Source: Candidatus Gastranaerophilales bacterium
GTDB lineage: Bacteria > Cyanobacteriota > Vampirovibrionia > Gastranaerophilales > Gastranaerophilaceae
Assembly: GCA_944324425.1 (NCBI GenBank)
Contig: CALUWE010000001.1
Span: forward strand, 62,001 to 126,000
DNA length: 64,000 bases
Reading direction: 5' to 3'
The notes under the pieces are model-generated. The model was not told the origin of the DNA, did no database searches, and saw only the letters and a list, made by a program, of their open reading frames with translations. Below, one piece after another: positions 11,694 through 51,635 of the stretch; position 1 is the first letter of the stretch, and the number at the start of each line of letters is the position of its first letter. A program made the translations under genes and the position numbers.

Positions 11694-12668
11694 TTATTGC
11701 GCAAAAACGCCCAATTCTCTGAATTTATTGTATCTGTGATTTTTTAATTCAGCAGGCGTCATATCTTTAAATTCGTCCAATGCTCTTAACAATGAATCTT
11801 TTAAGTTATTAGCCATTAATTCAGGATCATAATGAGCGCCGCCTATGGGTTCTTTTATAACTTCATCAACAATTTTAAATTTCAATAAGTCATCCCCTGT
11901 TATTTTAAGAGCATTTGCGGCTTTATTTGCCATAGCTGCATCTCTCCATAAAATTGAAGCACATCCTTCGGGGGAAATTACCGTATAGTAAGCATGTTCC
12001 AATATCATAACTTTATCTGAAACAGCTAAGCCTAAAGCACCGCCCGAGCAGCCTTCGCCGGTTATAACCGAAATAACGGGAACATCCAATTTTGCCATTT
12101 CTTTTAAATTAACGGCAATTGCAATGCCTTGGCCGGTTTCTTCCGCTTTAATACCGGGGTATGCGCCCATTGTATCAATCAGGGTAATAATCGGAAGATT
12201 AAACCTTGAAGCATGTTCAAACAATCTTAAAGCTTTTCTGTACCCTTGGGGTTGCGGCATACCAAAGTTGCATTCCAAATTTTCTTTTGTGGTTTTTCCT
12301 TTAACGGTTCCTATAATCATAACGGGAATGCCGTTTATTCTTGCAACGCCGCCCGCTATTGCTTTGTCGTCCGTACCTTCTCTGTCGCCGTGAAGTTCAA
12401 TAAAATCTTCCGTCATAAAATGAACGTAGTCATAAAAATTCGGACGCATTGGGTGCCTTGCAATTTGAAGCTTTTGATACGGCTCCAAATTTTCATAAAG
12501 TTCTTTCTTATACTCATCCGTTTGTTTTTCAAGAGTTTCAATTTCAGAGTTATAGTTCATATTTGTATCCATGCTAATCTTCTTTAATTCCTCGATTTTT
12601 TCCTGCATTTTATAAATAGGTTTTTCAAAATCAAGTATCTGAACTTTTTTGTTTTCTGCTTCTATCAT
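11694..12668 (-). CDS. accA: Acetyl-CoA carboxylase carboxyltransferase, alpha subunit
   Basis: The 324-residue protein is the alpha half of the carboxyltransferase that moves CO2 from biotinyl-BCCP to acetyl-CoA, giving malonyl-CoA. It begins with a coiled N-terminal region (LDFEKPIYKMQEKIEELK) and has the crotonase-like core with GDREGTDDKAI, LIDTMGAYPG and GEGCSGGALG. It follows accD by 15 bp; the biotin carboxylase and carrier genes lie 4.5 kb away on the other strand. Normal length, with no damage seen. Confidence 0.97.
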   Translation of the reverse strand: MIEAENKKVQILDFEKPIYKMQEKIEELKKISMDTNMNYNSEIETLEKQTDEYKKELYENLEPYQKLQIARHPMRPNFYDYVHFMTEDFIELHGDREGTDDKAIAGGVARINGIPVMIIGTVKGKTTKENLECNFGMPQPQGYRKALRLFEHASRFNLPIITLIDTMGAYPGIKAEETGQGIAIAVNLKEMAKLDVPVISVITGEGCSGGALGLAVSDKVMILEHAYYTVISPEGCASILWRDAAMANKAANALKITGDDLLKFKIVDEVIKEPIGGAHYDPELMANNLKDSLLRALDEFKDMTPAELKNHRYNKFRELGVFAQ

Positions 12669-12683
12669 TATAAGTTACTTTCT

Positions 12684-13553
12684 TTATTTTTTCGTGTGCA
12701 TTGAAATTAATTTTGAAAGTTTTTCTTTCATTTCTTTTCTTTCGACTATAAAGTCTATTTGGCCGTATTTTAAAAGGTATTCAGCCGTTTGGAAGTCTGC
12801 GGGGAGTTTTTGTTTAATTGTTTGCTCAATTACCCTTCTTCCTGCAAAACCGATTCTTGCACCTTTTTCGGCTATCATAATATCCCCTAATGTGCCAAAA
12901 CTTGCAGTAACGCCGCCAAATGTAGGCTCACATAAAACGGTTATATAAAGAATTTTTGCTTCATTTAACCTTGCAACAGCACAGCTTGTTTTTGCCATTT
13001 GCATTAAGCTTAATGCGGATTCTTGCATTCTGGCGCCGCCTGAAGCTGTAAATGCAATCATGGGGATTTTTTCTTGAAGTGCAAGTTCCATAATTCTTGT
13101 AACTTTTTCACCCACAACGGAACCCATTGAACCGCCCATATATTCAAAATCCATAACGGCAACGGCAACCCTTTGCCCGTCTATGTTGCCCACACCCACA
13201 ATAACCGCTTCATCAAGTCCTGTTTTTGTGTGAGCTTCTTCTTGTCTTTTATAATATGGTTTTGTGTCAACAAAATCCAAGGGGTCAACACCTTTTATAT
13301 TTGCAAATTTTTCTTCAAAAGTTCCTTCGTCTATAACAAGTTTAATTCTCTCTCTTGCGCTTATTCTGAAATGATAATCGCAATTGGGACAAACCATAAG
13401 GTTGTGTTCCAAATCTTTTTTAGGGAGCTGAGAATTGCAGTTATAGCAAAGGCTCCAAAGTTTTCCTATTGAATCGTCAATGTTTATTTCGTTTTCTCTT
13501 AACGCCTGTTTTTGTTCCTGTTTTCTCTTATTAAACCAATCGGTTAAACTCAT
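12684..13553 (-). CDS. accD: Acetyl-CoA carboxylase carboxyltransferase, beta subunit
   Basis: The 289-residue subunit has the N-terminal four-cysteine zinc finger (CYNC followed by CPNC about 17 residues later) and the crotonase-like core with GSMGSVVGEK and ASGGARMQE. The start at 13553 gives MSLTDWFNKRK, the usual AccD beginning, and has AAGGAAT about 7 nt before it; a longer upstream frame adds unrelated residues. It heads the minus-strand acc/signalling block and faces rsgA across 145 bp. Confidence 0.96.
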   Translation of the reverse strand: MSLTDWFNKRKQEQKQALRENEINIDDSIGKLWSLCYNCNSQLPKKDLEHNLMVCPNCDYHFRISARERIKLVIDEGTFEEKFANIKGVDPLDFVDTKPYYKRQEEAHTKTGLDEAVIVGVGNIDGQRVAVAVMDFEYMGGSMGSVVGEKVTRIMELALQEKIPMIAFTASGGARMQESALSLMQMAKTSCAVARLNEAKILYITVLCEPTFGGVTASFGTLGDIMIAEKGARIGFAGRRVIEQTIKQKLPADFQTAEYLLKYGQIDFIVERKEMKEKLSKLISMHTKK

Positions 13554-13596
13554 AAGGTAATTCCTTAAATAAAATCTCTTCCATATATGTACCTCT

Positions 13597-13602
13597 ATTA
13601 TA
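13597..13602 (-). promoter_or_regulatory. -10 box (TATAAT) of the accD promoter
   Basis: A perfect TATAAT on the minus strand lies 43 bp before the accD ATG, leaving a leader of about 36 nt with its own Shine-Dalgarno. Within the leader a 17-codon reading frame (13531-13584) starts after AGAGGT and overlaps the accD start in another frame. This is a leadered promoter, unlike the rsgA promoter across the same gap. Confidence 0.5.
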
Positions 13603-13683
13603 ATATAATAAAAAACTAAGGACAAGTAAGTAAATGTCCTTTATATCCTTTAATATTAATAGACAAAATTTCATTAATTTTGA

Positions 13684-13689
13684 TATGAT
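13684..13689 (+). promoter_or_regulatory. -10 box (TATGAT) 9 nt before the rsgA start
   Basis: TATGAT ends 9 nt before the rsgA ATG and no Shine-Dalgarno lies between them, so the predicted transcript has at most a few untranslated bases. Confidence 0.45.
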
Positions 13690-13698
13690 TATTTTGTT

Positions 13699-14721
13699 AT
13701 GAAAGCACAAGTTTATAAAATCCATTCAGATTTTTATTACATAAAGCCTCTTTCAAAAAAAGAGGATTTAATTGAGTGCAAATTAAGAGAAATTTTAAAA
13801 AAACAAAAGATAAAAATTAAAGTGGGCGATTTTGTGGAAGCCGAAAACGGTGCCATATATAACCTTTTAGAAAGAAAAAACACAATTGAAAGACCCTCTG
13901 TTTCAAATCTTGATATGGTAGTGGTTGTATCATCGCTTTTGGAGCCTAAGGTTGATTTTATTCAATTGAACAGATATTTAACATTTTTTAAATACCATAA
14001 AATTGATGTTCTTTTATGCTTCAACAAAGATGATTTAATGGACAAAGAAGAATTAAAGCATGCGGAAGATAAAATAAGAAAAATTTATGAGCCCTTGGGG
14101 TATAAAATTGTTTTTACATCGGCCCTTTATAATGACGGACTAAAAGAATTTTACAGGCTTATTCGAAATAAAACAATTGCGTTTTCGGGGTTATCGGGTG
14201 TCGGGAAAAGTTCTATTTTAAATGCAATTTCAAACAGCAACATAAAAACAGGTAACGTAAGCCTTAAAAATAAACGCGGCTGCCACACAACAAGACATTG
14301 CGAAATTATTGAATTTGAAGGAACAAAAATTATTGATACCCCGGGGTTTTCTCGCCTTACTTTTGATTTTTTGCTTCCCAAAGATTTAGGCATTCTGTTT
14401 GACGACATTAGCATCTTTGCCAAAAAATGCAAATTTCAAGATTGCCTTCATACAGAAGCAGACGAAGATTGCAATGTTATAAAAAATTTAGATAAAATTG
14501 ATGAAAAAAGATATGAAAGCTACCTTAATTTTTTGGAAGAAACAAAAGAATTTAAACAAAAAGTAACTTATGAAAGCCAAAAAGAAGAAACGACAAATAA
14601 ACAATTTAAAGAAAAAACTTTTGCCAAAATAAGCTCTAAAAAAAGAAGTTTTTCAAGAAAAAAATTAAACCAAACAACAAAAAACCTTCATTTGGAAGAA
14701 ATCGGAGAAGATGATGATTAA
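13699..14721 (+). CDS. rsgA: Ribosome small subunit-dependent GTPase A
   Basis: The 340-residue circularly permuted GTPase helps late 30S subunit maturation. An OB-fold (1-70) precedes the G domain, where the G4 motif NKDD comes before the G1 motif GLSGVGKSS and G3 DTPG. The zinc site reads C-x5-C-x-H followed by C (CKFQDCLH...C). A lysine-rich tail of about 45 residues extends past the usual family end and may contact rRNA. The gene starts almost directly at a -10 box. Its last 11 bp overlap the polyprenyl synthase gene. Confidence 0.93.
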   Translation: MKAQVYKIHSDFYYIKPLSKKEDLIECKLREILKKQKIKIKVGDFVEAENGAIYNLLERKNTIERPSVSNLDMVVVVSSLLEPKVDFIQLNRYLTFFKYHKIDVLLCFNKDDLMDKEELKHAEDKIRKIYEPLGYKIVFTSALYNDGLKEFYRLIRNKTIAFSGLSGVGKSSILNAISNSNIKTGNVSLKNKRGCHTTRHCEIIEFEGTKIIDTPGFSRLTFDFLLPKDLGILFDDISIFAKKCKFQDCLHTEADEDCNVIKNLDKIDEKRYESYLNFLEETKEFKQKVTYESQKEETTNKQFKEKTFAKISSKKRSFSRKKLNQTTKNLHLEEIGEDDD

Positions 14722-15613
14722 GGGCTATAAAAAAATAGTTGATGAAACGCTTGTTAATTATTTTGATGAAATTTTAAACAACAAGGAGCACATTTTTGCC
14801 AAAAAAACAATTGAGGCGATGAAATATACAACTTGCCTCGGCGGCAAAAGGCTAAGGGCAATTTTATGTTTGGAAGCCTGCAGGATTTTTTCAAACGATT
14901 ATTTTAATGCACTGCCTGCCTCTTGCGCTCTTGAAATGCTTCATAGTCAAAGTTTAATCCATGATGACCTTCCTTCAATGGACAATGACGATTTAAGAAG
15001 AGGAAAACCCACAAACCACAAAGTATTTGGTGAAGCCGCAGCAATTCTTGCAGGCGATGCCCTCATCAGTTTAGGAGCACAAATTATAATAGAAAAAACC
15101 TCAAAAGCTGTTAGTATTGAAAGAATTTTAAAAGCGGTTAAAGAATACTTAATTGCGGCAGGCATTTTTGGTATTGTTGGCGGCCAAACGGCAGATATAG
15201 AGGCATCTGATTCAACTTTTAACATAAAAGACAACGACAAAATGCTTGAATATATTCAAAAATATAAAACAGGCGCATTATTTGCTTCAAGCCTTACAAT
15301 AGGAGCAATTTTGGGCGGAGCTGATTCCAAAAAAACAGAAGCCTTGAGAAAATTTGCATATGAATTCGGCATTGCATTTCAAATGGCGGACGACATTTTA
15401 GATGTTATTTCTACAACGGATGAAATGGGCAAAAAAACCGGCAAAGACCAAGATGAAAACAAATTAACTTATGTCGGCAAATTCGGACTTAAAGACGCAA
15501 AAGAAAAATTAATTAGCCAAAAAAAGGCTTGTTATGATATACTGAAAGCGAACGGCATAGAATCAGAAATTTTTTGTGAAATTATAAATTCCATAACCAA
15601 AAAAATATTTTAA
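14711..15613 (+). CDS. Polyprenyl diphosphate synthase (FPP/GGPP type)
   Basis: The 300-residue all-helical prenyltransferase condenses isopentenyl diphosphate with allylic diphosphates. The first aspartate-rich motif is DDLPSMDND, followed by RRGKPTNHK; the second is DDILD within FQMADDILDV. This is the IspA/CrtE group. Chain length cannot be set by eye. It overlaps rsgA by 11 bp and is followed by a DUF212 protein, a neighbour pair also known to me around crtE in cyanobacteria. Two start codons (14711 and 14714) are equally possible. Confidence 0.9.
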   Translation: MMIKGYKKIVDETLVNYFDEILNNKEHIFAKKTIEAMKYTTCLGGKRLRAILCLEACRIFSNDYFNALPASCALEMLHSQSLIHDDLPSMDNDDLRRGKPTNHKVFGEAAAILAGDALISLGAQIIIEKTSKAVSIERILKAVKEYLIAAGIFGIVGGQTADIEASDSTFNIKDNDKMLEYIQKYKTGALFASSLTIGAILGGADSKKTEALRKFAYEFGIAFQMADDILDVISTTDEMGKKTGKDQDENKLTYVGKFGLKDAKEKLISQKKACYDILKANGIESEIFCEIINSITKKIF

Positions 15614-15628
15614 ATTCAGGGGGGCAGA

Positions 15629-16126
15629 ATGTACAATACAGGATTAGAAGCAATGTTTGCAGGAATTGCATCGGCTTGCATTGCACAAATTCTGAAAGTT
15701 ATTATCTTCATTTTTGTTCATAAAAAAATTAATTTTAAAATTTTTACCACAACAGGCGGTATGCCAAGTTCTCATTCGGCGGGCGTTGTGGCCCTGACTA
15801 CAAGTGTCGGGTTAATTGAAGGGTTTACATCGATTGCCTTTGCAATAGCTTTAGGATTTTCGCTTGTTGTAATTCAAGACGCCCAAGGCTTAAGAAGGGC
15901 GGCAGGCAAAACCGCAGCCACCTTAAACAGGCTTGTCAGCGAGTGGAATCTTCACAATGAAACAACAAAACCGTACGAAGTTTTAAAAGAGCTTTTGGGG
16001 CATACGCCCTTGGAAGTTTTAATGGGAATACTTTTAGGGATATTAATATCTTTATTTGTTCACTTTAAAATGCCTGAATTTATTGACTTTTCAAGCATTA
16101 CCGCACTTTTAACTAACGCGTTTTAA
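15629..16126 (+). CDS. DUF212 / divergent PAP2 family membrane protein
   Basis: The 165-residue protein has four hydrophobic segments and the motif GGMPSSHSAGVVAL, the phosphatase-like signature of the divergent PAP2 family, then QDAQGLRRAAGK and a C-terminal GHTPLEVLMG. Related PAP2 enzymes dephosphorylate lipid phosphates, so placement behind a polyprenyl synthase suggests a prenyl-phosphate role; that is inference. AGGGGGG lies 5-6 nt before the ATG. The 3' end overlaps a small gene on the other strand by 18 bp. Confidence 0.85.
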   Translation: MYNTGLEAMFAGIASACIAQILKVIIFIFVHKKINFKIFTTTGGMPSSHSAGVVALTTSVGLIEGFTSIAFAIALGFSLVVIQDAQGLRRAAGKTAATLNRLVSEWNLHNETTKPYEVLKELLGHTPLEVLMGILLGILISLFVHFKMPEFIDFSSITALLTNAF

Positions 16127-16279
16127 AAGTCCCGTTAAACTTGTTTTTTCAAAAGTTTGAACTTCTTTTTTAATTTCGGGCTTTTTGTTTTCGGGAGCCT
16201 TAAAGCTTGATAGTCCTATATATTCGTTTCTTGATTCCGGATTAAAAATATTAAAAAAGAAATTAAGAAAAGCTTTCAT
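16109..16279 (-). CDS. Small basic protein, 56 residues, unknown function
   Basis: A complete frame from ATG at 16279 to TAA at 16109 encodes MKAFLNFFFNIFNPESRN and a polar, lysine/glutamate-rich tail ending LLKRVS. AAAGGAC lies about 6 nt before the ATG, the same site used by the coiled-coil gene at 20004, which supports translation. The first 13 residues form a short amphipathic hydrophobic segment, possibly a membrane-surface anchor. No family recognised. It converges on the DUF212 gene with an 18-bp overlap and diverges from the HEAT-like gene. Confidence 0.55.
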   Translation of the reverse strand: MKAFLNFFFNIFNPESRNEYIGLSSFKAPENKKPEIKKEVQTFEKTSLTGLLKRVS

Positions 16280-16358
16280 GGTTTTTGTCCTTTTATAAAT
16301 TTTGTAAACTTAATAACATTTTAACTTATAAATTTTCAGGTAAATTATCGGTTCAGAG

Positions 16359-16364
16359 TATAAT
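16359..16364 (+). promoter_or_regulatory. -10 box (TATAAT) 7 nt before the HEAT-like gene
   Basis: A perfect TATAAT is followed after 7 nt by the ATG at 16372, with no Shine-Dalgarno. This also argues against an upstream in-frame TTG start at 16285. Confidence 0.6.
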
Positions 16365-16371
16365 ATCACTT

Positions 16372-17115
16372 ATGAATAAGTATAACAATTTTTCAAATAT
16401 TGTCCAAACGGATGAAGACCTTGATGTTGAATTTCAAGCTTATCAAACAAGCCTTGAAGACTTCGGTAAGGAAGATATAGTCCGCATTTTATCAGAAAAT
16501 GATGATGAAAAAAAGATTGTTGCCATAATTAATTTAAAAAGTATAGATAACAAATTTGAAACAGATTTAATTTTATCACATTTAACTGGGCAAAATGGCA
16601 GAATAAGAGAAGCCGTTTCATATATTTTATCAGAATTAAACCCTTCAAAATTTTGTTTGGATGAAAAATCAAAAGAAATAATAGTAAAAGGTATTTTGGA
16701 CATTAACCCGAATGTTGTAAGGAATGTTCTTACCTTTATTGATGAAAACCAAATTTTAAAGAACGAATTAATTGAGCCCGTTATTAAAAAAACAAATGAG
16801 GTTCTTGCCGATTTATCACGCTTTATAAGAGAAGATTCACCGTTTTTTGAAAATACTTCAAAATCAAATAAAAACCACGCCAAAAATAAACTCACATTTA
16901 ATTTGTATTGGCTTTTGGAAACAATTTCAATTTTAGATGTTAATAAAATTGAAAATTTGGAAGAAATTTTAACAAAAACATCAAATTTTCTTGATTACAC
17001 AATTAGGGAAAAAACAGCTAAAATACTGTCTAAAATGGAAAACAAACCCCCTAAATTGTTACGGAAATTGAAAAATGATGAAAACATATATGTAAAAAAT
17101 CAACTTTTGTGTTAA
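16372..17115 (+). CDS. HEAT-repeat-like helical protein
   Basis: The 247-residue product appears all-helical, with repeated pairs of amphipathic helices such as GRIREAVSYILSEL, NPNVVRNVLTFIDE, IREKTAKILSKM and a C-terminal PKLLRKLKNDENIYVK. This pattern resembles HEAT or Armadillo-type scaffolds that bind proteins or nucleic acid. No catalytic motif is visible and I cannot name a family with certainty. The start at 16372 is placed by the -10 box just before it. It stands alone between a divergent small gene and efp. Confidence 0.6.
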   Translation: MNKYNNFSNIVQTDEDLDVEFQAYQTSLEDFGKEDIVRILSENDDEKKIVAIINLKSIDNKFETDLILSHLTGQNGRIREAVSYILSELNPSKFCLDEKSKEIIVKGILDINPNVVRNVLTFIDENQILKNELIEPVIKKTNEVLADLSRFIREDSPFFENTSKSNKNHAKNKLTFNLYWLLETISILDVNKIENLEEILTKTSNFLDYTIREKTAKILSKMENKPPKLLRKLKNDENIYVKNQLLC

Positions 17116-45562: not shown

Positions 45563-46537
45563 ATGAGCATTTTGAGCGAAATAGGTTCATTATTTCATAC
45601 CGGAACAGCAACGGAAGCAGAAGACAAATTAAAAGGTCAAGCCGCACGGCAAACAAATGTTGAAAGCGACGGCAAACAAGAGACATCATATACATCAAAA
45701 CAATCCGCAGAAGCAATTACAAATAATGCCCTTGCAGACATTAATGCAAAACCCGAAACAAGGGTGAAAACCTGCAATACAAAAAAACTGACAGGCAAAC
45801 TGTTCCCTGATTTTGACCAAAGACAAATAACTCAAGATTATTTGGCGCTCAGAGAAGAAGCCAAACAAAAAGCCGTTCGAACAACCAAAAGAATATACAG
45901 AACGTTTACAACCGGCGATATGAGCGACCTTACCGATAAAAACGGGAATATTATTGCAACATTTACAATTCCCGAGAAACATTCAGACAATTTTACTGAC
46001 GGAGATGAATTTTGCTCATATAAAATGACGGAATATAGCCCAAAAACAGGCGAAGTGGTTGCAGTTACAAGAGTATTTAACCACGACGGCTTTAACAAGC
46101 AATGGAAAAGGCACTACGGACCCTACATGGAAAGATTTGAATTCGGCAAAAAACCCGAAGATACTACATATTTAAAAATAGGCCTTACAAGAAAAGAAAA
46201 AGACGGTAAATATATTTTGCATCCTGAGGTTCAGCTCTACGCAAAAGGCTACCAATCCGACGGACTTGCAACGGGAATGAGAAAAGCCGATAAATTCATA
46301 TCAAGTTTAATTCATCAGGATTATGAATCATACAGAACAAATTATGAAGCGCCGACAAGAATTTTTGACGGTTGTCTATATTCAGACCCTGCATCCGTAA
46401 CCGAAAAAGACGGCATGTACGGCGAAAAATTTGATTCTGCACTTGAATATCCTACAAGGCAGTTCAAAATAGGCGATGAGATTTATGTATTTAATCCTTA
46501 TTACGTAAATGAAAAAGGAAACAGAACGGAAGATTAA
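45563..46537 (+). CDS. Protein of unknown function
   Basis: The 324-residue product begins MSILSEIGSLFHTGTATEAE, has a polar, low-complexity stretch to about residue 75, then a more folded part with LFPDFDQRQITQDYLALREE, GDEFCSYKMTEYSPKTGEVV and GDEIYVFNPYYVNEKG. No signal peptide or membrane helix. I recognise no family. It stands alone between rnhB and a convergent radical SAM gene and may be a lineage-specific accessory protein. It ends at a strong terminator. Confidence 0.65.
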   Translation: MSILSEIGSLFHTGTATEAEDKLKGQAARQTNVESDGKQETSYTSKQSAEAITNNALADINAKPETRVKTCNTKKLTGKLFPDFDQRQITQDYLALREEAKQKAVRTTKRIYRTFTTGDMSDLTDKNGNIIATFTIPEKHSDNFTDGDEFCSYKMTEYSPKTGEVVAVTRVFNHDGFNKQWKRHYGPYMERFEFGKKPEDTTYLKIGLTRKEKDGKYILHPEVQLYAKGYQSDGLATGMRKADKFISSLIHQDYESYRTNYEAPTRIFDGCLYSDPASVTEKDGMYGEKFDSALEYPTRQFKIGDEIYVFNPYYVNEKGNRTED

Positions 46538-47642: not shown

Positions 47643-47691
47643 GTAATAAAAACGATACACGAAGGTTTTATTTTTTCTGAAGCGAGGAACA

Positions 47692-50600
47692 ATGAAAATT
47701 AATCCGATTATCTCATATACGCCGTCATATTTTGCCGACTTATCAAAAAATAGCAACGGTTTAAATGCGGTTAAAGATAGTGTGGGACAGTGCAATACAT
47801 TTTCCGCACAGTACAGCCAAATTAGTTTTGAGGGCAAAAAAAAGGATGTGCAGGACTACAAAAACTTCAGAAAAATGTACAACAACTTCAGCCCCGAAGC
47901 TGAAGACATTTACGAAAACGGCAAAAACATTGCAAAAAGACTCGGCTCCAAAGAACTTGAGACTTGGCACTTGTACCTTGCAACTTTATATGAAGCCAGA
48001 CAATATATTCAAAGTTTAAACGAAGGCATTGAAACATTTGAAGAAGGAGGAAGAAAAAAGCTCCCGCTTTCAATTCAAAGTATGATTTCATCAAACATCA
48101 GTATTTTTAGAAGCGAAACTGACAGAAAAAAAATAGAAGATGTTCTTAATGCACATATAAATCAAACAGTCAGCCAATTTACGGAAAGGCAGGAAAGTCA
48201 AAAAAGCGGCTTTTCCATACCATCCTTGGGTATCACCCCTTCCAAAGACGCCATAGATGATATGATGGAAACATATGATTATGCGGCCAACATGGCGCAG
48301 ACAGACAATTTCTTTGACAGTTATTTTCTTGTGTCTGCAAACTATACAAGGGATGTAATGCTTGCTAAAGAAGCAAGGAACTTTAGGCATGATTTACAAA
48401 AAGCATTTATGATAGACGACTCCTCGCACAAGAAAAAATTTCACCTGAGATTTTTTGATGATAAAGCGGATGCAATATGGAAAAATTTAGATCTTGGCAA
48501 CAATGCCGTTTTTCTTTGCGATTCAAATAACAAAGATTCCGTCAAACACCTTGTTTCAAGCTTTATTAACCTGATAAACAAACCCGGTAAAAAGTATAAA
48601 AATTTAGACCCTGCAAAAACAGATGTTATTGTTTTAAACAAAGACGCAAGTTTTGAATTTGTTTTTGACCACATTAAAGAAATTTCCGAAGATTCTGAAA
48701 AGAGCGGCAGAACAACTGTTTTTGTGGGCGATTTATTAACTCTTGTAAGAAATAATCCGAAAGCGCAAATATCGGGGGACGAATTAAGAATGCTGAAAAA
48801 CGGCGGGCCGAAAATGAAAAACGGCTCGCAGGTAAGATTTGTGTTTGCCATGACGCCTGAAAATTACTACGCAAACACTTCGGGAGATGCCGGTTTTAGC
48901 GAAGTTCTCTCTCAATATGCAATTCAAACCATTCCTTCTCTTAATGCAACGGATACAAAAAAATATCTTACGGATGAAAACGGCTTGGATTTTGTTGAAA
49001 ATGAAACAAAAATAAGATTTACAAAAGAAACGGTAGAAAAAGCAATTGAACTTACAAGCACCGAAGAAGGCAATTATCCCGATAAAGCTCTTTCTTTATT
49101 AAGCGCTGTTTCAAAATATTATGTAGATAAAGAAAAGATAAGACCAAGAGACCTTGAAAAATATTTAAAAGAAACCGAAATGCTCTCTGAAGCTTCCACT
49201 TCAAGCGACAGGTCAAACATAATTTTTGATACCGGCAAAACAACGGAAGATATTATAGGAAGCCCCATGACCAAAAAAGATGCCAAGAGCATAGCAAATC
49301 AAATTAAAAACGGTACAATAGGAACAAGAGGGTTTATTGCACAATTAGACGACGGCTCGTCATACGGCGGCGGCAGAAGGCATACGGCAGAAGCAATTGC
49401 AGGTGAAGCAAAAATTCCGATGATTGTAATTAATGCCAAAGACTTTGCCCTTAAAGATATTGATGCACTTTCTCAAAACGCGTCTTTATCCGAAATAAAA
49501 ATTAAGAAAATTGTTGCAACCGCAAAAGCACAAGCCGAAGCCAACGAAAACAAAACCGCCATGATATTTATTGAAAACTTCGACAATTTCGGTGCAAACC
49601 CTTTGTATGGAATATCTTCCATATATGAACAAAAAGCGTTTTCTCAATTATTGGAAGAAATGGAAAACACAAGGAAAAATGACAAAGTTAATTTAATTAT
49701 TGTAGGCTCTGCCAATATGCCGGGCGTTATTGACCCGAATATAATGAAGCCTTATAAATTTTTAAATTCCATTATTGTTTATCCTCCGCAAGATACAAAA
49801 GAAAGAAAAGAAGTTTTAAATTATTACATTAAAAAAATGGGTCTTGAAATTGCAGGCGACACAAAAGAAGAACAGGACAAAGTGGTTAAATGTGCGGCAG
49901 AAACCACACAAGGCTTTACTGTTGCGGATTTAATGTATTTATTAGATGTGGCTAAATCCGTACAGCTTGAAAGAAACAAAGATAAAATTGACGCTTCCGA
50001 TTTTATAGAAGCATTTTTACGTGCAACATCGGGACGCACAAATGAAGCGGAAATTTCACCGGCAAGAAAAAAGATTGTAACATCTCATGAAGCAGGCCAT
50101 GCGCTTTGTCTGCAAATAATGTATGAAATAGCCGAAAAATCAAAAATACCTTGGCACCTTCCCGATAAGGTAAACTTTATAACTCTTGACCCGAGAGGAA
50201 ATTTCGGCGGGGCAATGTATTATAAAAAATCAAGCAACGAAGAGTATTCTTTTGAAAAGGTTATAAGCAACATAGTGTCTTGTTTCGGCGGACATTCAGC
50301 CGAAAAAATCCTGTATAATATGACAGGTTCATACGGAATCACAGGCGATATGGAACAAGTTACAGCCTTGGCAAGAATGGCCGTTCTTGATATGGGCATG
50401 GGCCCAAAAACAGGCCCTGCGCACATTCAAAGAAACGCTTTAGGCTCCCCTGATGTTTCAGAGAAAAAATTGGGCATAATTGAAGATGATATAGATTCCA
50501 TGGTTAATGCCGCAGGAAAAATTTCGGATATGATTGTGGAAGAATATAAAGATTTTATTCTTGAATTCACCGACAGATATTCAGACAAAGTCGGCAGCGG

Positions 50601-50751
50601 CGAGTGCTTGGTTTCTTCGGAAACATTTATGCAAGAGTTAAACGAATGGAGAAATAAACAGCCGAAAGAAAAACTGGAAAAGCTTAATTCTCTTGAAGGA
50701 GAAATAAATAAAATTGTGGAAAACACAAAACATGGAGGCAAACAGGCATAA
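47692..50751 (+). CDS. Clp-FtsH-like chimera: Clp N-domain, two degenerate AAA+ modules, M41 zinc protease
   Basis: The 1019-residue protein has five parts. Residues 1-50 form a polar leader ending ISFEGKK. About 65-225 resemble the two-repeat Clp N-domain (NFSPEAEDIYENGK, WHLYLATLYE). About 250-500 resemble the first ClpA/B AAA+ module, ending YPDKALSLLSAVSKYYV, but no Walker A lysine is visible. About 540-785 align with the FtsH AAA+ module (AEAIAGEA, IFIENFDNFG, ANMPGVIDPNIMKP), where Walker A reads SSYGGGRRHT, Walker B has EN for DE, and the arginine-finger RPGRF is KPYKF. About 790-985 is an M41 protease with HEAGH (H799, E800, H803) and the third ligand D886 in TGDMEQ. No membrane helix is seen. 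It is probably an active protease with inactive unfoldase modules; GAGGA precedes the ATG. Confidence 0.85.
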   Translation: MKINPIISYTPSYFADLSKNSNGLNAVKDSVGQCNTFSAQYSQISFEGKKKDVQDYKNFRKMYNNFSPEAEDIYENGKNIAKRLGSKELETWHLYLATLYEARQYIQSLNEGIETFEEGGRKKLPLSIQSMISSNISIFRSETDRKKIEDVLNAHINQTVSQFTERQESQKSGFSIPSLGITPSKDAIDDMMETYDYAANMAQTDNFFDSYFLVSANYTRDVMLAKEARNFRHDLQKAFMIDDSSHKKKFHLRFFDDKADAIWKNLDLGNNAVFLCDSNNKDSVKHLVSSFINLINKPGKKYKNLDPAKTDVIVLNKDASFEFVFDHIKEISEDSEKSGRTTVFVGDLLTLVRNNPKAQISGDELRMLKNGGPKMKNGSQVRFVFAMTPENYYANTSGDAGFSEVLSQYAIQTIPSLNATDTKKYLTDENGLDFVENETKIRFTKETVEKAIELTSTEEGNYPDKALSLLSAVSKYYVDKEKIRPRDLEKYLKETEMLSEASTSSDRSNIIFDTGKTTEDIIGSPMTKKDAKSIANQIKNGTIGTRGFIAQLDDGSSYGGGRRHTAEAIAGEAKIPMIVINAKDFALKDIDALSQNASLSEIKIKKIVATAKAQAEANENKTAMIFIENFDNFGANPLYGISSIYEQKAFSQLLEEMENTRKNDKVNLIIVGSANMPGVIDPNIMKPYKFLNSIIVYPPQDTKERKEVLNYYIKKMGLEIAGDTKEEQDKVVKCAAETTQGFTVADLMYLLDVAKSVQLERNKDKIDASDFIEAFLRATSGRTNEAEISPARKKIVTSHEAGHALCLQIMYEIAEKSKIPWHLPDKVNFITLDPRGNFGGAMYYKKSSNEEYSFEKVISNIVSCFGGHSAEKILYNMTGSYGITGDMEQVTALARMAVLDMGMGPKTGPAHIQRNALGSPDVSEKKLGIIEDDIDSMVNAAGKISDMIVEEYKDFILEFTDRYSDKVGSGECLVSSETFMQELNEWRNKQPKEKLEKLNSLEGEINKIVENTKHGGKQA

Positions 50752-50834: not shown

Positions 50835-51635
50835 ATGAAAATTTCAAATGTTGCATTCAACAACAGTTATTTTAAACCCGCCTTTAGGGGGTACACATTA
50901 AAAACAGAAAATAAAAAAACAGGCTCAGATAGTTTAAATGTTGAATTACCGGATTCAACACAATATGATTATGCTCCACTTTATACAGACCCAAAAAAAG
51001 GGAGAATGCTTGAAACCACATATAGAAACAAATTAATGGGCATTTGCTTTGACGAAGAAGGCAAGTTAAACCCGATTATCAAAAAAAAACTTGATGACAG
51101 CAACTTTATTTTTGAACAACCCGACGGTACATCAAAAGTAATGACCATAAAAGATGCGCTTAAAAGCTATGTAATATCTTCCAAGCCTTTTAACAGACAG
51201 CTTATTCATGCAACGTTTGTCAGAGAAGATGCGGAAAATATCAAAAGGCACGGATTTGACCCGAAACGTATTTCAAGAGCGGAATTTGGCCCCGGTTTTT
51301 ATTTCACCCCTTCCGAAGGAGAAGCCATGAACTACGGAAGTGCAATGTTAAGCGCAAGAGTTAAAGGTAACTGCGCACATATGGATGGCAAGTTCTATGA
51401 AAAAATTAAAACACAAGGCGTAACAGATACCGTAAAAAATTTCATAGGCTTAAAATCATCAAACCATCCGACTTTTGACATTGAAAGACAAGTGGTCAGC
51501 ACGGTTATCAACGAATATGTAAGAAATATTTTGTTTGAAGAATTAGGCTACGATTGCGCATACGGTGCAGGCGGCGGCAAATCTTGTTACGTTGTATACA
51601 ATCCTGATGCAATAAGCGACATAAAAGTTTTTTAA
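50835..51635 (+). CDS. ADP-ribosyltransferase-fold-like protein
   Basis: The 266-residue protein has a short leader (MKISNVAFNN to AFRGY at residue 20) and a C-terminal domain resembling the ART/PARP fold. Readable elements are LIHAT (H125), the helix DAENIKRHGFD, the strand FGPGFYFTPSEGEAMNYG (Y156), and the last strand CYVVYNPDAI. In ARTs the position before YVVY is usually the catalytic glutamate; here it is C251, so activity is uncertain or of the H-Y type without glutamate. It follows the Clp-FtsH-like gene by 83 bp on the same strand. A secreted effector, an enzyme or a binding module are all possible. Confidence 0.6.
   Translation: MKISNVAFNNSYFKPAFRGYTLKTENKKTGSDSLNVELPDSTQYDYAPLYTDPKKGRMLETTYRNKLMGICFDEEGKLNPIIKKKLDDSNFIFEQPDGTSKVMTIKDALKSYVISSKPFNRQLIHATFVREDAENIKRHGFDPKRISRAEFGPGFYFTPSEGEAMNYGSAMLSARVKGNCAHMDGKFYEKIKTQGVTDTVKNFIGLKSSNHPTFDIERQVVSTVINEYVRNILFEELGYDCAYGAGGGKSCYVVYNPDAISDIKVF

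Follow-up and report, generated by a model that had tools for sequence, protein, structure and literature searches.

The window analysed here is a 64,000-nucleotide stretch of a Candidatus Gastranaerophilales genome, and the window features described below all lie on its forward strand. An ORF at 47692-50751 starts with ATG, ends with an in-frame TAA and encodes a protein of 1019 aa, read from the sequence as a Clp(N-D1)/FtsH(AAA)-M41 chimera. A Shine-Dalgarno-like sequence, GCGAGG (47682-47687), was read directly 4 nt upstream of the start codon, and an SD-like sequence occurs no more than 20 nt from the start in 55/69 members of the chimera family. The protein comprises, in order, a disordered leader, a ClpC-type N-domain, a ClpC-type D1 without a P-loop, a motor-dead FtsH-type AAA+ module and an M41 protease domain. 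The gene is single-copy in the host genome, where a canonical FtsH whose motifs are intact (L002) is encoded as well. No transmembrane helix was found in the chimera, where the maximum 19-residue hydropathy (KD19) is 1.02 versus 2.86 in the resident FtsH, and no signal peptide was detected in it. A first-pass annotation, made from the DNA letters, had proposed a soluble Clp-FtsH chimera at this ORF. Its motif positions (HEAGH at residues 799-803, EN at 628-629, KPYKF at 686-690 and D886) and ORF are all as placed, solubility is upheld at the sequence level by the hydropathy values, and the chimeric nature stands at the levels of both sequence and fold, with a Clp-type front and an FtsH-type AAA/M41 rear. 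The AlphaFold model of the full-length chimera has a pTM of 0.46 and gives no support for a domain arrangement or an oligomer.

Modules and altered motifs

The front half consists of a ClpC-type N-domain (residues 50-240; 47839-48411) and a ClpC-D1-type AAA+ fold without a P-loop (residues 246-505; 48427-49206), in which the Walker A position reads AVFLCDSNNKDSVKHL. Searched as a single sequence against Pfam, this half returned only AAA_lid_9, the ClpA/B D1 lid, below the cut-off (E 0.069). A profile built from 72 N-terminal halves matched ClpC in the PDB (3pxg, E 1.2e-6; 6em8, including the D1-lid stretch, E 2.1e-5). Against the lineage's own ClpC, hhalign aligned the first repeat of the N-domain (E ~1e-6) and the D1 (E 2.4e-5), these being single-comparison E-values; the D2 of that ClpC did not match the N-terminal half (E 0.35), nor did the second Clp_N repeat of the chimera match the ClpC N-domain. 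Residues 50-505 were modelled by AlphaFold with a pLDDT of 92.4 and a pTM of 0.89, and the top 50 Foldseek hits of this model in the PDB were all ClpC, ClpA, ClpB or Hsp104 (best E 1.2e-10). Of the Clp N-domain-like repeats first annotated here, the first is therefore recovered by sequence and the second by fold only. The annotated D1-like region without a Walker A lysine is borne out, its fold being matched and Gx4GK[TS] occurring nowhere in 83 homologues. Thus, family profile, hhalign, and AlphaFold with Foldseek recover both Clp_N and AAA+ folds in the first 785 residues.

The FtsH-type AAA+ module spans residues 506-785 (49207-50046). It matches PF00004 at residues 561-692 (E 1.7e-11), and the FtsH structure 2dhr aligns over 503-924 (E 2.1e-30), with FtsH structures in the PDB being collinear over 503-994; Foldseek on the full-length model likewise identifies the C-terminal half as FtsH. 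In place of Walker A is GGGRRH (residues 559-564; 49366-49383), with Arg562 at the position of the lysine. The pseudo-Walker B is AMIFIENF (623-630; 49558-49581), with EN instead of DE, and KPYKF (686-690; 49747-49761) replaces the RPGRF arginine-finger segment. The arginine fingers of the SRH and the FVG pore loop of FtsH are missing from the chimera in the motif table. These three altered motifs agree with the first-pass annotation, although its description of the AAA+ modules as "ruined" is misleading, since the substituted residues are invariant (R562) or nearly so. We conjecture that a salt bridge between R562 and E628, a mostly acidic position, might replace the nucleotide and lock the ring.

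The M41 zinc-protease domain occupies residues 786-1015 (50047-50736). PF01434 scores 68.7 bits over 788-956, where the cut-off is 29.9 (E 7.6e-19), and was matched by all 14 of the family members scanned. HEAGH (799-803; 50086-50100) supplies zinc ligands and the catalytic Glu800, and Asp886 (50347-50349), aligned with the D of the FtsH motif ENDFRQ, is the third zinc ligand. The annotation of an intact M41 site extends to the whole family, in which the H, E, G and H of HExGH and D886 are each present in 83/83 homologues. The TIGR01241 (FtsH) equivalog score of the chimera is 142.8 bits, below the cut-off of 600. Judged by these sequence models, the chimera belongs to M41 but falls outside the definition of FtsH.

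Conservation, distribution and intact-motor relatives

The homologue set comprises 83 distinct full-length sequences, recovered nearly all from Gastranaerophilales gut genomes. G[GAS]GR is found in 83/83, as are G559, G561 and R562 individually, and the canonical P-loop Gx4GK[TS] is absent throughout all 83. At residue 629, the position of the Walker B Glu, there are 76 N, five K and two H, and E in none of 83, part of the set having been retrieved with a peptide pattern that contains the pseudo-Walker B and would bias this count. The 37 loci L089-L125 were retrieved by the N-terminal half alone and all show the same AAA-site replacements; thus, for these loci the broken AAA site was not selected for by retrieval. 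The mean majority-residue fraction among the 83 is 0.64 in the AAA module, 0.61 in M41, 0.48 in D1, 0.37 in the N-domain and 0.35 in the leader. For 14 close pairs, dN/dS was 0.05-0.14 over the whole protein and 0.00-0.08 over the dead AAA module. The dead-motor, intact-protease state is fixed under purifying selection across all modules. The absence of intact Walker motifs from all 83 family homologues likewise indicates a fixed state rather than local decay. Because the zinc-site H, E, H and D are kept in 83/83, catalysis is among the features retained by selection.

Full-length homologues were found in 13/58 genomes, the host genome counted, and a search with the N-terminal half alone was positive in 49 of 146 family genomes (about a third). 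A scan of the GTDB collection (84,980 genomes) yielded 93 loci of the chimera family, with matches from Gastranaerophilales or gut MAGs; three contigs are titled as other taxa and are probably mis-labelled bins. Matches in class and phylum samples, which seem weighted to near relatives, were confined to the own family. Distribution is patchy, and a 99%-complete congener (G002) does not carry the gene. The chimera is an accessory function of Gastranaerophilales of the animal gut, with goat, sheep, roe deer and chicken named in record titles. A phage origin was rejected, as the phage-record matches shown are of FtsH type, lie from residue 559 onward, have 26-31% identity and in no case reach 80% query coverage. 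A role in anti-phage defence was also rejected (no PADLOC match).

Within the same order, other chimeras of 733-902 aa carry a leader and an M41 domain. Four of them (L019, L022, L023 and L027) contain a P-loop-less region resembling D1, and a profile of this live-AAA group aligned with the dead chimera family over the D1 region (hhalign E 5e-17); L027 scores above the AAA_lid_9 cut-off. No Clp N-domain was seen in these four. An intact FtsH AAA+ (GTGKT, IDE, FVG pore loop and RPGRF arginine finger) is present in the same four and in L025, L028 and L215-L220. L025 and L215-L220, the latter of genus g6, represent a leader-AAA-M41 paralogue (733-778 aa) whose ATPase motifs are intact, and several g6 genomes encode a live paralogue of the L215-L220 type alongside the dead chimera.

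A further three proteins (L020, L021 and L024) keep GSGK[TS] and have lost the pore loop, the Walker B Glu and the arginine fingers. In the tree, they are sister to the dead family with 100% bootstrap, the dead family itself receiving 77%. The node joining all leader-type M41 proteins is at 32% and the FtsH rooting is uncertain, and we do not claim a single origin of all live-AAA chimeras. Distant relatives with an intact FtsH AAA+ point to an ancestor of the dead chimera that had a live motor. Since a P-loop-less D1, an M41 domain and an intact FtsH AAA+ occur together in relatives, fusion preceded motor loss. Judging from the partial loss in L020, L021 and L024, the motor appears to have been lost step by step, the P-loop lysine being the final element to go. 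The reverse reading, in which a motor was regained, is unlikely.

Leader and gene neighbourhood

The leader (residues 1-49; 47692-47838) is rich in N, S and K and ends in ISFEG, and the model is disordered there (pLDDT 26-36 over residues 1-50). Comparable hxFxG/A leader ends are found in most chimera relatives. The host genome was surveyed for such leaders in 800 kb of genome stretches together with the window. In the host and in other genomes, leader-like hxFxG ends were found on an FHA-calpain protease and on starch-synthase-like, NTP transferase, HD, DSHCT helicase, HNH and ART-like proteins. A similar leader is carried by a divergent second PRPP synthetase of the host, the weaker of two (113.7 vs 178.3 bits). 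As similar leaders sit on unrelated proteins, the leader may be an address. Leader statistics are mixed across samples, and the shared leader is treated as a lead only. A broader proposal is that, across the lineage, divergent versions of ordinary intracellular enzymes (PRPP synthetase, starch synthase, adenylate kinase, helicase and proteases) share an N-terminal address with an hxFxG end, and that the chimera is one of them, serving as the motor-free protein-quality protease at the addressed place; we consider this speculative and rather unlikely.

Leader-bearing loci in the host follow a pattern in which the start resembles M-[KQRN]-[IV], a stretch rich in N, K and S comes next, and the hxFxG end is reached within the first 15-75 residues. 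They are L246:15798-17855, L249:6283-7971, L251:14767-16635, L252:9018-10205 and 15310-16779, L253:2870-4654, L256:3537-4484, L257:2014-4836, L267:5251-6318, L271:13030-13947 and L281:4778-5494. The domains on these proteins include NTP transferase, HD, FHA with calpain C2, starch-synthase-like and PRPP synthetase. In other genomes, a leader-bearing DEAD/DSHCT (Ski2-like) helicase and an HNH protein lie immediately 3' of the chimera, and inspection by eye added an adenylate kinase and a kinase-like protein bearing this type of leader (helicase, HNH and kinases: L093:9313-11970 and 11957-14176, L089:1656-2375, L097:2765-3751).

Directly 3' of the chimera in the window is a 266-aa ORF with a similar leader, MKISNVAFNNSYFKPAFRG (50835-51635). 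It has a weak likeness to ADP-ribosyltransferases (ART-PolyVal, E 0.0086, below the cut-off), and an ORF of this kind has the same place in L128. For a 324-aa ORF upstream (45563-46537), Pfam and NCBIfam gave nothing above cut-off, and the one homologue seen occupies the corresponding position in L128. Within the genus, the flanks match between the window and L128. An operon partner was considered and rejected, as neighbours differ between genera and flanks are unrelated (e.g. enolase-like and IF3-like, named by eye). Elsewhere in the order, ORFs of approximately 450-500 aa similar to G043:C177:44514-45599 are widespread and have up to four Clp_N matches; these are too short to be a full ClpC.

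Proposed function and comparison with known systems

We consider it reasonably probable that the chimera is a soluble, ATP-independent, ring-forming M41 zinc protease that acts on unfolded or adaptor-delivered substrates and keeps its AAA+ modules as architecture. Its ATP-independence, also put forward in the first-pass annotation, is predicted from the missing ATP-site residues. That annotation further suggested that the dead AAA+ modules may act as an assembly ring or substrate-binding scaffold and that the protein may be cytosolic or exported. In the proposed history, a ClpC-type D1, accompanied in the dead family by an N-domain, would have been placed ahead of an FtsH-type AAA+/M41 unit stripped of its membrane anchor. 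The P-loop would already have gone from D1 while the FtsH AAA+ still worked as a motor, and the latter would then have lost its pore loop, arginine fingers and Walker B Glu and, lastly, its P-loop lysine. In the resulting protein, two non-hydrolysing AAA+ modules may form a ring serving as the roof of the M41 chamber. The N-domain of Hsp100/ClpC proteins recruits adaptors or substrates, and the ClpC-type N-domain of the chimera could bring in either. Without a motor, the protease would cut peptides, unfolded proteins and exposed segments, and folded proteins would not be pulled apart. We infer a hexamer, proteolytic activity, absent hydrolysis, recruitment by the N-domain and the location of the protein. 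Loss of hydrolysis does not by itself prevent an AAA+ module from binding nucleotide, as LonC illustrates, so that ATP could act as a regulator.

Alternatively, the leader may direct the protease out of the ordinary cytosol, by export or by packing with other leader enzymes into an intracellular compartment lacking or short of ATP, where a motor would be dispensable. The disordered leader of ~49 aa and the similar hxFxG ends on unrelated proteins are consistent with this, and the start motif and hxFxG end are associated in the sampled part of the host genome (Fisher p 1.2e-5), although the patterns were picked after examples had been seen and p is 0.61 in a second, small sample. Position enrichment in the host genome is modest (p 0.006-0.08), linkage to a secretion or compartment gene is not conserved, and live-AAA relatives, which would need ATP, also bear the leader; we regard this explanation as unlikely. 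Unfolding might instead be supplied by resident FtsH or ClpC in a mixed ring, to which the chimera would contribute protease sites and recruitment. In the order sample, nearly every genome has canonical FtsH-like matches, each of the 38 genomes searched for Clp_N encodes proteins of ClpC size or pieces of them, and hetero-complexes of FtsH family members are known from plastids, where protease-dead FtsHi assembles with FtsH12 and Ycf2 (PMC9020784; structures 8xku and 8xqw). However, the membrane anchor of the resident FtsH has no counterpart in the chimera, which is free of membrane helices, the fusion has its own two-tier N-D1-AAA-M41 layout unlike that of FtsH, and many relatives keep FtsH yet lack the chimera gene, which together make co-assembly distinctly improbable.

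Most of the length of the chimera is non-catalytic sequence, and FtsH relatives have turned into scaffolds or import motors (FtsHi and Ycf2; PMC9020784). A chaperone or adaptor scaffold whose M41 site merely processes its own leader or one partner is nevertheless very improbable, given that FtsHi1, 2, 4 and 5 lack HEXXH while the H, E, H and D of the chimera are invariant. As for an ordinary FtsH gene that has decayed or been misassembled, some copies end at contig ends and two (L012 and L225) contain an internal stop. Against this, full-length frames are uninterrupted in dozens of independent MAGs, the substituted residues are invariant, dN/dS is about 0.05-0.14 and a separate canonical FtsH is present, so that this account is scarcely credible; a local pseudogene is ruled out by the 83/83 conservation and dN/dS.

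The closest parallel to the preferred reading, an ATP-independent M41 protease, is LonC. MtaLonC combines a degenerate AAA-like module with a live protease, forms a hexamer without ATPase activity that still binds nucleotide, and degrades unfolded, not folded, proteins without ATP (PMC3391209). In both proteins, a degenerate AAA module, which in LonC has lost Walker, sensor and arginine-finger residues, stands beside an intact protease site. LonC differs in being a Ser-Lys Lon protease of separate origin without a Clp N-domain or D1, whereas the protease of the chimera is a zinc M41, and no Lon family was among the Pfam and NCBIfam matches of the chimera. If active, the chimera would be the FtsH counterpart of ATP-independent LonC. 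With FtsH/M41 AAA proteases (TIGR01241; m-AAA and i-AAA) it shares an AAA+ module followed by M41 and the HExGH plus Asp zinc site; it differs in having an extra Clp N-D1 half and in lacking the transmembrane anchor, Walker A/B, pore loop and arginine fingers. Plastid FtsHi and Ycf2 are, like the chimera, FtsH-family pseudoenzymes retained by selection. FtsHi is its mirror image, as HEXXH is lost from FtsHi1, 2, 4 and 5 (PMC9020784) and the chimera keeps the protease site and loses the ATPase motifs. The front half follows the N-domain-then-D1 order of ClpC (Hsp100), but its D1 has no P-loop and the FtsH AAA+/M41 unit stands in place of D2; the two active AAA+ rings, D1 and D2, of ClpC/Hsp100 are thus not found in it. 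A partial literature search found no published ATPase-dead M41 protease or Clp/FtsH fusion.

M41 proteases are generally regarded as ATP-driven, membrane-anchored machines. The family described here is soluble and conserved, and retains an M41 site and two AAA+ folds with all ATP-site motifs gone. An active family of this kind would be an M41 equivalent to LonC, and motor-free forms would each have arisen from AAA+ proteases of unrelated catalytic type. It would also provide a natural motor-free FtsH with which to ask what an M41 chamber degrades unaided. A single bacterial order offers living intermediates, with the AAA+ live, half-lost and fully lost, for studying the order of loss.
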